Shown: positions 21,727 through 56,164 of the stretch, in pieces
Layout of the letters: each line of letters begins with the position of its first letter
How positions within the stretch are numbered: the first letter of the stretch is position 1
Source: Candidatus Gastranaerophilales bacterium
Lineage (GTDB): Bacteria; Cyanobacteriota; Vampirovibrionia; Gastranaerophilales; Gastranaerophilaceae
NCBI GenBank assembly: GCA_944324365.1
Contig: CALUWA010000005.1
Span: forward strand, 1 to 64,000
Length of the DNA stretch: 64,000 bases
Direction of reading: 5' to 3'
Made by a program: the position numbers and the translations under genes
The notes under the pieces: model-generated
The model's input: the letters and a program-made list of their open reading frames with translations, nothing else
Database searches by the model: none
Told to the model about the DNA's origin: nothing

Positions 21727-21794
21727 ACAGGGAAAATTTAATAAAAAATCAAACAGACAGCACGATTGAGGCTGTTTTTTAGTATTGAGATGTA
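21727..21794. repeat. 68-bp direct repeat, copy 1
   Basis: From ACAGGGAAAATTTAA to AGTATTGAGATGTA; identical over 68 bp to copy 3 (52330-52397) and over 49 bp to copy 2 (40167-40215), all in the same orientation. The core CAGCACGATTGAGGCTGTTTTTT can fold as a small terminator-like hairpin. It is followed by TGCACT-type sites at 21901-21940, interrupted by the inverted repeat at 21807. Confidence 0.95.
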
Positions 21795-28765: not shown

Positions 28766-29527
28766 CTAATTAACTTCAGGTGGTTTTGGCGGAACAAATC
28801 CTTTTGCGTATAATTTTCTCATTCGTATATTATATTCTTGTTTTAATCGTTTTGAAACTTCAGGAGTTTCAATAATATGGGCATAAGTAGGATTTAAAAA
28901 ATATGTTTCATATTGTAACTTATATTTATTGGTAATTCTCGTTGAATCAACCATAACCTCAATACGATAGCCTGCCATTTGAATAACATATTTTTTATAT
29001 TTTGAAGTTTTTTCCTTTGCAATAAGAACTTCTTGATTTATGTCTTCAGTAAGACTATTTTTGTAGATTAAAATTTTGAATAGCTCTGGGTACTCTCTTT
29101 TCCCTTTTAATATATTAAGTGCTTTTCTTTCATAGCCTCCAAGATTTATATTTGACCATTCTTCTAATTGAGAGATAGAAGCTCGCCACAGAATTGAAAT
29201 AAAGAATTTCCGAAGTTTTGTATAATCAAAATTGTTACTATCAAGCTGATAAATTTTATATTTAGGATGAATTTGTACATATTGATATTTGTTAAAATCA
29301 CCAAATAATACACGATAACCTTCTTTATCAAATTCTCCTAAGATATTATTATCACAATCCCCACATAAAATATTCGAATCATACCCACCTTGCTGTTGGT
29401 AGGTATATTCCCCAGTGTTAGAATTAATGCATATATATTTGTCATTTTTCCTTGCTAAATAAAAATTTCTTGGAATAATATGTGCTTTTATTAATTTCTT
29501 TTCTTGTCTACAAAATTTACAGATCAT
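28766..29527 (-). CDS. HNH-like zinc-site protein, paralogue of the gene at 54628
   Basis: 253 residues. CKFC at residue 3, then KAHIIPRNFY and LCGDCDN: two CxxC pairs around a His in the order of an HNH/treble-clef nuclease. Its first ~60 residues nearly match the protein at 54628-55398, as do KLRKFFISILW and ALNILKG further on. The rest is unique to this pair. It lies 45 bases after the PD-(D/E)xK gene of the defence operon and may be its last cistron. Nuclease activity is inferred; the catalytic second His-Asn is not certain. Confidence 0.6.
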   Translation of the reverse strand: MICKFCRQEKKLIKAHIIPRNFYLARKNDKYICINSNTGEYTYQQQGGYDSNILCGDCDNNILGEFDKEGYRVLFGDFNKYQYVQIHPKYKIYQLDSNNFDYTKLRKFFISILWRASISQLEEWSNINLGGYERKALNILKGKREYPELFKILIYKNSLTEDINQEVLIAKEKTSKYKKYVIQMAGYRIEVMVDSTRITNKYKLQYETYFLNPTYAHIIETPEVSKRLKQEYNIRMRKLYAKGFVPPKPPEVN

Positions 29528-40166: not shown

Positions 40167-40215
40167 AAAAAAATCAAACAGACAGCACGATTGAGGCTGT
40201 TTTTTAGTATTGAGA
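40167..40215. repeat. 68-bp direct repeat, copy 2 (49 bp conserved)
   Basis: Shares the AAAAAATCAAACAGACAGCACG... to ...TTAGTATTGAGA core with copies 1 and 3, but not the ACAGGGAAAATT start or the TGCACT sites. It separates the defence module from the lipid module and may also end the hipA transcript. Confidence 0.93.
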
Positions 40216-51731: not shown

Positions 51732-51885
51732 TTTATAACTCCTCTATGCCCCTACCAATCTGTATAATCTTAACACTATTAACCCTAATGTGTCAATATG
51801 TAATGCATTTTCACAAGTACATCAGACTATCATACTAATCCAAACACTAATGTTTAATGCTTATTGTATTATTTTTACACATTTT

Positions 51886-52254
51886 TTTAAAGAAGATGAA
51901 ATGTGTGCTTTATTCGTTGCAGAATATAATGAAAATTTAGAAGTCTTTCATAGTAATTTTGTTGATATAATTGACAAACATAAAGATTGTAGAGCTTTTG
52001 ATTTTAAAAATGTTCCACAAAACATTTTCAATGTTTCATGTTTACCTTGGGTAAATTATAAAAGTTTTGATATTCACGTTTTTGATGAAGGAAAATATTT
52101 AGCTCCTGTAATTACTTGGGGGAAATATGTCGAGAAACATGGTAGAATAACTCTTCCTTTTTCATTTAATATTCATCACGCTGCTGCTGACGGTTATCAC
52201 CTTTCAAGATTTTTCATTGAATTGCAAGAATTACTAAATTCTTTTGAATACTAA
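51886..52254 (+). pseudogene. cat: 5'-truncated chloramphenicol acetyltransferase
   Basis: FNVSCLPWVNYKSFDIHVF, LAPVITWGKY, GRITLPFSFNIHHAAADGYHLSRFFIELQEL are the C-terminal half of type-A CAT, including the HHxxxDG catalytic His. The first ~90 residues are absent; sequence left of about 51886 does not continue the family. The best remaining ATG is at 51901. The product would lack half of the substrate site, so it is probably inactive. It lies 75 bases before repeat copy 3, at the edge of the lipid module. Confidence 0.75.
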
Positions 52255-53400: not shown

Positions 53401-53480
53401 GACGGTATTTCAGGACTTGACTTCTGTCTCAAAACGAGTGATGAATGTGTTGCACAAAGCATTACAAGGATTTTGAGACA

Positions 53481-54572
53481 ATGGAAACCCAAGTTGATAC
53501 AATCAAATACACCCCTGAGAAGGCAAAACAAAATGCACTTGCAAAACTTGATTTAATCCGCAAATGGCAAGAGTTTCGCCGTAAAGCTGTCAATAAACTT
53601 CAAGCAGACTATGATTTTGTCAAACTGCATAATAGTTCAAATTCCTACCTTTTCAGTGTTTTAGGTAAAATCTCACGAGGAAGCCTGCATCGTTGGAAAG
53701 CCAGTTTAGACGGAACAGAGGATTACACAAGATTAATCCCTAATTACAAATACGTTTCTGTAAATGAATACAGAACATGTCTAACGGATGAAGAAATCAA
53801 AATATTTATGGGGTTGCTCCTGCACCCGAATAGAATTTGTATCGGCAAAGCAATCGCACTTACAAAATACAAGCTCAAAGAACAATGTCAAAGTTTCATA
53901 CCTGCAGATATTACATTCAGACGCTACGCAAAATGGTTTAAGGACAACAATTACGACAAATGGGTGCTTGCTCGAGACGGTGAAAAAGCACTTTCTGATA
54001 TAGTCGAGCCTTATATTAAAAGAGATGCAAGCCTGCTTGATGTCGGGGATATTTTAGTCGCAGACGGGCACAAGTTGGCGTTTCAAGTGATTAATCCGTT
54101 TACGGGCAAGCCTTGTCGAGCGACTTTAGTCGGATTTTTGGATTGGAAATCAACAGCACTTGTCGGGTATGAAATTATGCTTGAAGAAAACACCCAATGC
54201 ATTGCAAGTGCACTAAGAAACGCAATAATAAACCTCGATATGATACCGAAAATTGTCTATCAGGATAACGGAAGGGCGTTTAGAGCAAAGTATTTCACAG
54301 ACGATAAAGGATTTACGGAACTTGGTTTTTACGGGCTTTATGCAAAACTCGGGATTGAAACGGTATTTGCAAGATCCGTAAAAAGTTTCTGGTACAACAA
54401 ACTTGGGGCGGAAAGACGATTGCCGCCAGAAGCTCGCAACAGAAATAACAAACGTCTTAGAAAATTAAGATTTCTGCCACCGAAAATAAGCGAAAGTATC
54501 ATGAATGGAACCCAAGATCCTGAATTGACAGTTAAAAAACTAATTACATTGGCTGAAAATTTTTGTAAATAA
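53481..54572 (+). pseudogene. Chimeric Mu-like transposase N-terminus joined to a serine-recombinase-like tail
   Basis: 363 residues open from ATG 53481. Residues 1-298 are Mu-like transposase: helix-turn-helix region, D195 (VADGHKLAF) and D262 (YQDNGRAF) intact. After VFAR (near 54371) it leaves the sequence of the 21979 copy, losing the third catalytic acid (Glu) and the C-terminal domain. The tail RFLPPKISESIMNGTQDPELTVKKL resembles the C-terminal segment of serine recombinases. The join is in frame but cannot make a working DDE enzyme. The stretch 54070-54370 is almost identical to the other copy; upstream codons differ more. Confidence 0.75.
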
Positions 54573-54627: not shown

Positions 54628-55398
54628 ATGCATTCTATAAGTATTTGTAAATTTTGTGGAAAAGAAAAAAAGTTGATAAAAGCTCATATTATTCCTCGCA
54701 ATTTTTATCTCGACTATAAAAATGAACAGTATATGAGAGTTGATGAATTGTCTGGTAAATTTACAATTAAGCAAAATGGTTCCTATGATAAAAACATATT
54801 ATGTGCAGAATGTGATGGAAAAATTCTAGGCAAGTTTGATCAAGAGGGATACCGAATTTTATTGGATGAAATATATAAACATTGTTTATATCGCGATGAT
54901 AAAGTAAAAATTTATAATCTGTCGTCCGAATATTATGACTATAACAAATTAAGAAAATTTTTTATCTCAATATTGTGGAAAGCTTCAATTTCTTCTTTAC
55001 CGGAATATTCATATATACAGCTTGGTGAATATGAGGACAAAGCTCTTGCAATATTAAAAGGAATTGCAAGTTACGAAGATTTATTCAAAATATACATATA
55101 TAAATATCCTAAAGATAAAGACTATAACAAATTTACATATATTACAAAAACTAAAATTGCAAATTATAAAACTTTTGTACTTAATATGGCAGGATGTATG
55201 ATTTTTATAATTCTAAATGGTAAAAATCATCCATATACAAAAGGAAATCATCCTATATCAAAAATGATTATAAATAATAAAAATTTTTGTATTATAGAAA
55301 GTGAAGACTTATATGTTCAACATCAACGCATGGCTGAACAAAAAATGCAGGAAATGTGGAGGAAAGGATACAAGCCCCCATTTGCTCCTAAATTGTAA
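54628..55398 (+). CDS. HNH-like zinc-site protein, paralogue of the gene at 28766
   Basis: 256 residues. CKFCGKEKKLIKAHIIPRNFYL and LCAECDGKILGKFDQEGYR give two CxxC pairs around a conserved His, the same as at 28766-29527; KLRKFFISILWKASIS and ALAILKG also match. The divergence between the paralogues is large in the C-terminal half. TATAAT ends six bases before the ATG with no ribosome site, so it is probably leaderless. Stand-alone copy at the right edge of the accessory region. Function unknown; nuclease-like by inference. Confidence 0.6.
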   Translation: MHSISICKFCGKEKKLIKAHIIPRNFYLDYKNEQYMRVDELSGKFTIKQNGSYDKNILCAECDGKILGKFDQEGYRILLDEIYKHCLYRDDKVKIYNLSSEYYDYNKLRKFFISILWKASISSLPEYSYIQLGEYEDKALAILKGIASYEDLFKIYIYKYPKDKDYNKFTYITKTKIANYKTFVLNMAGCMIFIILNGKNHPYTKGNHPISKMIINNKNFCIIESEDLYVQHQRMAEQKMQEMWRKGYKPPFAPKL

Positions 55399-55565
55399 AA
55401 TAAAAAAGGACTCTTTTTATTTGCCCAAAGAGAATTTTGGTGCAAACGTGATAAAATTCTCTACAAATTGTATCAAATAAATTCTCTTAAATCCGCGAAA
55501 GCCTGTACAGTGCAGCGAATTTGGCATTAAAAAGGAGGCTATCACAAGCCTCTGAATTTTAATGG

Positions 55566-55581
55566 TGGAGACGAGGGGAAT
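55566..55581. repeat. Displaced tmRNA 3'-end copy (TGGAGACGAGGGGAAT)
   Basis: 16-bp direct repeat of 55765-55780, the last bases of tmRNA. Here it is preceded by TGG, i.e. on the minus strand it reads CGTCTCCACCA with CCA encoded, whereas the functional tmRNA end lacks CCA. Typical trace of an element that inserted in the 3' end of ssrA and restored it. Confidence 0.75.
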
Positions 55582-55650
55582 GTCTTGGTCGCTCGCGTTT
55601 AACGGCAATTACGCGATTTATTGCGGGTTTTCAACCCTTACAAATCGGCT

Positions 55651-55706
55651 CCAGCCTCAGATCGCTCCCGCTTGAACCCCTGACAAGACTCCGTCTTTCA
55701 GGGGTT
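55651..55706. other. Hairpin-rich non-coding stretch between displaced end and tmRNA
   Basis: GAACCCCTGA and TCAGGGGTTC (55673-55707) form a ten-pair stem with an inner AAGAC/GTCTT stem. On the minus strand the CAGGGGTTCAAGC segment looks like a tRNA T-arm. No gene is visible from 55399 to 55730. Confidence 0.5.
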
Positions 55707-55730
55707 CTCAACTTCACAATCTTAGTAATA

Positions 55731-55762
55731 AAAAAGGACTACCTAAAGTAGTCCTTTTTATT
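55731..55762 (-). terminator. tmRNA terminator
   Basis: Perfect 12-pair stem AAAAAGGACTAC/GTAGTCCTTTTT with a five-base loop immediately after the tmRNA 3' end; symmetric, so it can work on both strands. Confidence 0.88.
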
Positions 55763-55764
55763 AT

Positions 55765-56164
55765 TGGAGACGAGGGGAATTGAACCCCTGTCCAAAATGG
55801 ATCAACACAGATATCTACGAGTGTAGAAACTTATTTGCTCAACTGATTCCGGAAAGTTTCAAAACCGTTAAATCAGCCCTAGGTTTTATTTGAAGGAAAC
55901 TCTAAACCTTTGATGGTTATCTTGATGCTGTTACCATCATCTCAGCACTGCGTCTTGCATGATGGACCCATAAAGCCGGCAAGCTGGGCTCTATGAGTAG
56001 CTATTCATCAAAGGACTACGCAGCTAAAGCATATGCTCTAGAGAAGTCAGCTTCGATTACATTATTTTTAGCATTTAATTTAGTTTGCTCGTTGATAACC
56101 GTGAACAGCGCACGGACTCGCAACCTGCATCAACCAAACATCCTGTCTAATCCATAACGTCCCC
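55765..56164 (-). ncRNA. ssrA: tmRNA (transfer-messenger RNA)
   Basis: 400 nt on the minus strand. 5' GGGGACG pairs with 3' CGTCTCC, then discriminator A; the T-arm is GGACAGGGGTTCAATTCCCC. CCA is not encoded. The tag frame runs from GCT at 56072 to TAG at 56016 and encodes AKNNVIEADFSRAYALAA; the ALAA end fits protease tags. It rescues stalled ribosomes with SmpB. The 3' end is duplicated at 55566, an integration trace. Confidence 0.95.

Follow-up and report, generated by a model that had tools for sequence, protein, structure and literature searches.

A Small Folded Repeat Unit Inserted at the 3′ End of ssrA and Its Relatives Behind tRNA Genes of Gastranaerophilales

A Duplicated ssrA 3′ End and the Unit Between Its Copies

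We describe a repeat unit of about 200 bp found at the 3′ end of ssrA, the gene for transfer-messenger RNA (tmRNA), in the genome of a Candidatus Gastranaerophilales bacterium. The window, meaning the whole stretch of DNA that was analyzed, comprises 64,000 nucleotides (positions 1 to 64,000 of contig CALUWA010000005.1, assembly GCA_944324365.1). Its ssrA, the target gene of the unit, encodes the tag AKNNVIEADFSRAYALAA and occupies 55765..56164 of the minus strand (ARAGORN; Rfam RF00023, 108.6 bits). As read on the plus strand, the 16-mer TGGAGACGAGGGGAAT occurs here in two exact copies, at 55566-55581 and 55765-55780, which are 199 bp apart; chance alone would give 0.21 matches at up to three mismatches, and apart from these two the whole assembly holds none at up to one mismatch. 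The proximal, functional copy (55765..55780, minus strand) starts in the T-loop and ends with the discriminator base. In the sense of ssrA this functional end reads ...TCTCCAATA, where TCTCCA is followed by ATAATAAAAAGG and no CCA is encoded, whereas the distal, displaced copy (55566..55581, minus strand) reads ...TCTCCACCA with its encoded CCA next to it at 55563-55565. Both the duplication and the one-sided CCA had been pointed out in a sequence-only reading of this DNA, made earlier by a model from the letters and their open reading frames (ORFs), and both are confirmed.

All parts of the unit lie on the minus strand, as ssrA does. The 183 bp inserted between the two copies (55582..55764; the 199-bp period includes one end copy) contain no gene and are too short for an integrase. 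On the ssrA side there is a terminator-like hairpin (55730..55759), recognized by eye, not listed by the terminator scan and near-identical in a copy of the unit behind a transfer RNA (tRNA) gene, tRNA-Ala, of the same genome. It is followed by a hairpin that we call arm X, GAACCCCTGA...TCAGGGGTTC (55674..55707, delimited from the sequence), whose 3′ arm, called t5′ (55672-55684), copies the 5′ strand of the ssrA T-stem together with the T-loop. Then comes a structured core (55581..55677), supported by covariation and by a score of 90.9 bits with the covariance model R1, this copy itself being among the 20 used to build R1. The T-loop variant of the window's ssrA, TTCAATTCC, recurs in the flanks of the core, and a relative of the same genus (genome G011) carries TTCGACTCC. 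Past the distal copy lies the original ssrA terminator (55534..55553, minus strand; terminator scan).

An Empty Site in a Relative

The ssrA locus of G011 (L010), whose ssrA match is 95% identical to the window, has a single end copy, TCTCCACCA, and continues at once into what lies past the distal copy in the window. When one 199-bp period is taken out of the window, the two sequences align with no internal gap and 503 of 539 positions identical, whereas gaps of 197 and 2 are required when the period is kept. This gap-free alignment to an empty site identifies a clean, complete insertion and not a remnant of a lost island. Adjoining the distal copy on its outer side, ~136 bases (about 55428-55563) represent native ssrA downstream sequence common to the empty site, and the original terminator has the same position in both. 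From the comparison it also follows that the original end is the distal one with CCA, and that the functional end arrived with the insertion or was copied during it, in agreement with the proposal of the sequence-only reading that the ssrA 3′ end is an integration site and had been replaced from outside. The same reading had taken the site for the right edge of an island and had reasoned that either most of one element was gone or the island continued left of 55566. None of this is supported, as the ~199 bp correspond to one whole member of a repeat family and native ssrA flank adjoins the distal copy.

Fourteen ssrA loci were compared. Four of them (L010, L014, L015, and L016) have no unit in the stretch examined, which covers about 130-420 nt and in L010 and L014 reaches no further than about 140 nt from ssrA. 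A unit is present in the window and in most of the other loci; some are tandem, interrupted or truncated at the end of a contig, or belong to a divergent type (by eye). The presence of both end copies in all relatives would have spoken against an integration, and the single copy of L010 shows that this is not the case.

A Family of Structured Repeats

The same 200 bp is found elsewhere in this genome, at tRNA-Ala (90-92% identical) and as two tandem diverged copies at tRNA-Arg (75-77%). The interiors of the ssrA and tRNA-Ala units are about 90% identical, and their ends are local to each gene. From 20 copies of the structured core, which is ~97 nt long, we built R1, and this model detects 16 cores in the genome. 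Considering 37 tRNA genes and ssrA, with 350 nt downstream on the same strand, 11 of the 16 cores were located behind a tRNA or tmRNA gene, namely Ala, Arg (two), Ser-TGA, ssrA, Leu, Lys-CTT, His, Asp, Lys-TTT, and Ser-GGA; units thus stand behind 10 of these 38 genes. A twelfth core lies 932 nt behind Ser-GGA (contig C1), and the two Ser-GGA cores enclose a RelE-type toxin gene and a gene resembling an antitoxin, which at 52.7 bits falls short of its cut-off of 53.7. The remaining four comprise one core after an apparent tRNA cut by the contig start, one that lies close to the end of a contig and whose tail is tRNA-like (by eye), and two that adjoin the protein genes nrdJ and rpoB.

Within the order Candidatus Gastranaerophilales, cores are present in 96 of the 117 genomes searched, with up to 30 per genome. 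A pattern scan gave at least 110 named stretches, and the 110 listed are labeled as Candidatus Gastranaerophilales (77), Melainabacteria (6), Cyanobacteria (1), unlabelled bacteria (21), and others (5, recorded as Clostridiaceae, Clostridia, Fusobacterium twice, and Brachyspira). Tandem units occur at L006, L098, and L168. The genes between or inside some cores include toxin-antitoxin, Fic-like and restriction-like genes (the latter two by eye) and transposon-like inserts, none of which is common to many. No Rfam 15 family exceeded its gathering score on the cores, and in the window and the 16 core loci only tRNA and tmRNA passed, with weak sub-threshold matches otherwise. Titles and abstract openings in the literature, which covered few subscription papers, gave no description of this element family.

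Phage and plasmid collections returned no match to the one core queried. A phage-like contig from IMG/VR (L191) has a unit with an ssrA-type tail at about 535-735, which could mean that units are transferred in this way or that a prophage lies next to ssrA, and the other 38 viral pattern matches contained no core at an E-value of 1 or below. By eye, divergent or second-type units beyond the coverage of R1 are seen at ssrA or behind tRNA-Ile (GTCTTGGATTATT...) in L017, in L028 and at about 21800 of the window. Also by eye, inserts of 2-5 kb with repeated CAAACCATCTGT-like ends sit inside the variable hairpin of the core in L108, L130, and L124, as if favored by transposons.

The core is a folded structure. 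RNAalifold gave 21 pairs for the 20 copies, 14 of them with double changes. We further aligned 90 of 139 cores by sequence alone (alignment A2), leaving out three truncated loci and near-identical copies. Of the A2 cells for the 12 outer pairs, 96.0% are paired (82.0% when shuffled), compared with 28-37% in slid controls, where the choice of these pairs from the 20-copy consensus favors the unslid version. Double changes were counted in 118 cells, compared with 32.7 (standard deviation 4.0) in shuffled alignments. Conserved GA steps face GA between paired dinucleotides, in 73 and 81 and in 79 and 81 of the 90 cores. The tRNA-sense strand forms a more stable fold than its complement in all 90 cores with RNA energies and in 83 with DNA energies.

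Position and Ends of the Units

In 102 of the 110 listed loci we counted 124 cores, excluding 5 of 129 model matches that scored below 25 bits. The 3′ end of a tRNA or tmRNA gene on the same strand lies no more than 350 nt upstream of 78 of the 124, and in no case is a tRNA on the opposite strand the only one inside that distance. The tail, by which we mean the sequence following the core, was readable in 77 cases representing 25 kinds of tRNA and tmRNA (one of the 78 tails was too short), and 51 of the 77 have at least 12 nt in common with the final 30 nt of the tRNA to which they belong, compared with 0.036% of 5,556 cross-pairs. Since the units bear the end of their own local tRNA and not a fixed 16-mer, a search for the ssrA 16-mer in a circular element, as proposed in the sequence-only reading, would be the wrong test.

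The flank ahead of the core copies the target as well. It was parsed for 70 units out of 134 cores (the 124 and 10 of the 16 from this genome), kept when at most 130 nt from the tRNA. The T-stem letters of the t5′ flank fit the own tRNA in 47 of these 70, against 17% of control pairings. The usual junction is inside the T-loop, between the A of TTCGA and RTCC, and is shifted by a few bases for Asp and for some Gly, Leu, and Glu. Arm X tends to read as a reverse-complemented T-arm of the local gene in which GA stands in place of TC. A match of at least 5 nt between arm X and the reverse complement of the local gene end (T3) was found in 30 of the 70 units, where 200 shuffles gave a mean of 15.5 and a maximum of 27; we regard this complementarity as moderate evidence only.

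Some cores are located directly at the stop codons of protein genes, i.e., rpsD before rpoA (L135), rpoB before rpoC (L182), rpmG (L115), and nrdJ (L179), families called on fragments, with rpsD, rpoB, rpoC, and nrdJ below the full-length cut-offs and rpoA by eye. At these stop codons the first base of the core completes TAG, whereas the rpsD of a relative (L099) ends with TAA and has no core. The ribosomal and transcription gene run of L115 (rpmG-secE-nusG-rplK, rplK by eye) contains two cores, the second of which comes after an apparent duplicate of the nusG 3′ end.

A Proposed Mode of Insertion

In our view, what the window contains is probably a small non-autonomous mobile element of about 200 bp, present as a single complete copy and placed in the T-loop of ssrA by way of a folded site and mobilized in trans. 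The tRNA-sense strand would fold, as single-stranded DNA or as RNA, into a T-arm capped by the core, and this folded site, closed by the T-stem, would recombine with the T-arm of a tRNA gene, for which integron attC × attI recombination offers an analogy. The unit would bring or copy the 3′ end of the gene and a terminator, while the old end would be pushed behind the core; owing to the incoming end and terminator, the tRNA would remain functional. The match of the ends to a new tRNA could result from copying of the target during insertion or, alternatively, from later gene conversion. The reaction would be helped in trans by a recombinase, possibly a host Xer-type enzyme. As a broader and more tentative suggestion, these units may form a new class of mobile DNA, made up of gene-less folded elements that would settle at the 3′ end of nearly every kind of tRNA gene, and of a small number of essential protein genes, and adjust their ends to the target in each case, their movement relying on a folded-strand or guide-like mechanism and on a host or other enzyme.

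The search for the enzyme gave mostly exclusions. This genome has four tyrosine recombinases (PF00589), one of which, in the window, is XerC/XerD-like. A genome with 26 cores (G081) has only two, both of XerC/XerD length, and on this ground we rejected a dedicated tyrosine integrase and take host Xer-type enzymes as the leading, if weak, candidate. With no dedicated enzyme found, the recombinase would have to act in trans. A large serine recombinase was rejected after a PF07508 search found none in this genome, and reverse transcription after no RVT_1 match was obtained in this genome. IS110 was rejected likewise, its transposase being found in none of 11 core-bearing genomes (this one included) and in 1 of 10 without a core match, a set defined under the stricter filters of the 117-genome search. 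At the tRNA-Ile of two relatives (L230 and L232) we observed islands of 10-13 kb that start with serine recombinases, with a reading frame antisense into the tRNA, and have a core at the far end. Because these islands lie between the tRNA and an ordinary unit, they are read as independent elements and not as an autonomous form of it. Serine recombinase pieces are also found in L025, L098, L133, and L169.

Several observations weigh against an element of this kind. For 46 of the 124 cores, the stretches examined contain no tRNA on the same strand in a range of 350 nt; many of these cores sit close to the end of a contig or locus, or follow other inserts. In addition, 26 of the 77 tails have less than 12 nt of identity to their own tRNA end, and the tail of L091 resembles the end of another tRNA. 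Among 548 ORFs near cores there was no recombinase tied to the units, in searches that did not include the TnpB and HUH families. Just one recombinase cluster recurs in at least three loci; its 4 ORFs, from 3 loci, encode serine recombinases and in every case lie on the core's far side, and tyrosine recombinase ORFs occur in just 3 of the 110 listed loci (L100, L111, and L157). The numbers of tyrosine recombinases are similar in the 11 core-bearing genomes (2-10 each) and in the 10 without a core match (3-10 each), so Xer-type enzymes also exist where cores do not. Site-specific recombination of a circle fails to account for the new tRNA's end on both sides after a move, and no circle, transcript or reaction was observed in this sequence-based analysis.

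Alternative Explanations

A possible, though rather unlikely, alternative is an insertion guided by RNA or single-stranded DNA, where arm X and t5′ would guide the unit to the T-loop and a staggered cut, made for example by a TnpB-like or HUH enzyme, would duplicate the gene end (T3, about 15-18 bp). Such a cut agrees with the locality of both end copies in most units tested, with the fit of arm X to T3 above the permutation maximum (30 of 70 units vs. 27), and with the duplication in the window, which ends at the discriminator base, ahead of CCA. However, the left end is not conserved and terminators vary between units (by eye), and in L063, L105, and L129 the CCA is found in the proximal copy only. 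The absence of IS110 in the 11 core-bearing genomes, and of reverse transcriptases and large serine recombinases in this one, also speaks against a guided insertion, TnpB and HUH being outside these searches.

We find it improbable that the units spread without dedicated mobility, by template switching and homologous recombination through short tRNA-end homologies and dispersed cores, with gene conversion afterwards that would hold the ends alike. Tandem copies, the hybrid-looking L091, the swapped order of terminators in L063 and L079, and the lack of an enzyme among the profiles searched would suit this scenario, as would the local TTCAATTCC variant carried by t5′, proximal end and distal tail alike in the window. 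However, the insertion point is identical across many different tRNAs (after the T-loop A, before RTCC) and cores lie exactly at stop codons, and this constancy suggests a site-specific reaction.

It is very unlikely that the core is an immobile regulatory RNA element of the host, acting in the processing, termination or attenuation of tRNA operons. The strand is the same as that of the tRNA in all 78 cores near one, the covariation is RNA-like, and cores also occur between rpsD and rpoA, between rpoB and rpoC, and after rpmG, nusG, and nrdJ, as a host element might. Yet the presence of the unit varies within one genus at the same gene, gene ends are duplicated, units form tandem arrays, and by eye a terminator-like hairpin separates the tRNA from the core in many of them.

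The view of the sequence-only reading, by which an attachment site was left as a scar at the border of a larger island (of the tyrosine-integrase type) that has mostly disappeared, is hardly credible: a duplication from the T-loop to the 3′ end is a classic mark of islands (cf. PMC4383910) and the same tRNAs do host others (the serine recombinase islands at tRNA-Ile), but native flank adjoins the distal copy, similar units stand at many tRNAs, the 183-bp insert is gene-free, and the L010 empty site already refutes a scar at this locus.

If the mobile element that we favor is real, a bacterial order harbors tiny mobile elements behind a sizeable share of its tRNA genes, each keeping the gene end working. 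The question of how one structured core suits so many targets then bears on structure-directed DNA insertion. For annotation, the units are a warning that duplicated tRNA ends are not necessarily marks of big islands.

Other Features of the Window

A 48-bp direct repeat (21743-21790 and 40168-40215) flanks an 18.4-kb stretch downstream of tRNA-Ile, which contains a solitary tyrosine recombinase of 179 aa, hipA with an upstream hipB-like ORF, and genes that by eye resemble those of type I restriction systems. In another genome (G134), a related junction sequence comes after a core. Two look-alike proteins of 253-256 aa with an N-terminal CxxC zinc-like motif are encoded in this tRNA-Ile island (28766-29527, minus strand) and near the ssrA unit (54628-55398, plus strand), and neither has a match in Pfam or NCBIfam. 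A chloramphenicol acetyltransferase-like ORF that is short at its N-terminus (51790-52254) lies near a transposase-like ORF with a weak IS481 match (53445-54572).

Comparison with Known Systems

The attC sites of integron cassettes are folded structures with extrahelical bases and with R and L boxes of the motif G-TTRRRY/RYYYAAC. Our units resemble attC sites, the substrates of IntI, in their imperfect folded hairpin with a variable terminal stem, in one strand folding better, and in tandem copies; one array of this genome has the RelE-type toxin and antitoxin-like gene between two cores. Unlike in integrons, most units are gene-free and the partner site is a tRNA T-arm. No G-TTRRRY/RYYYAAC boxes were seen by eye at the unit junctions, as judged against that motif. 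Nor was an integron integrase identified among the two of the four tyrosine recombinases that were compared, i.e., those in the window, which score 154 and 43 bits against the integrase_gron cut-off of 265; the C4 and C19 proteins lie outside this comparison.

With genomic islands and integrative mobilizable elements at tRNA and tmRNA genes, which employ tyrosine integrases and include a T-loop subclass, the units share insertion in the T-loop, a restored functional gene end, and a displaced fragment past the far end of the element. They differ in their size of about 200 bp, in having no integrase inside, in their occurrence at 25 tRNA and tmRNA kinds and at protein genes, and in their common structured core. 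Rickettsia palindromic elements, repetitive extragenic palindromes (REP) and bacterial interspersed mosaic elements (BIME) with their REP-associated tyrosine transposases (RAYT), and miniature inverted-repeat transposable elements (MITEs) are likewise short, repeated, hairpin-forming, non-coding and presumably non-autonomous. In contrast to these, the units lie at gene 3′ ends in one orientation, with the target end copied on both sides, and terminal inverted repeats of the MITE type were not found, as the left ends vary between units and the core end alone is conserved (by eye). The bridge RNA (seekRNA) elements of IS110 and IS1111 also have a structured strand with parts that match the target, whereas the IS110 transposase is missing from this genome and from 10 further core-bearing ones. 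The integron attC site, the tRNA island and the small palindromic repeat each overlap in part with the unit, and none of them agrees with it in every feature.
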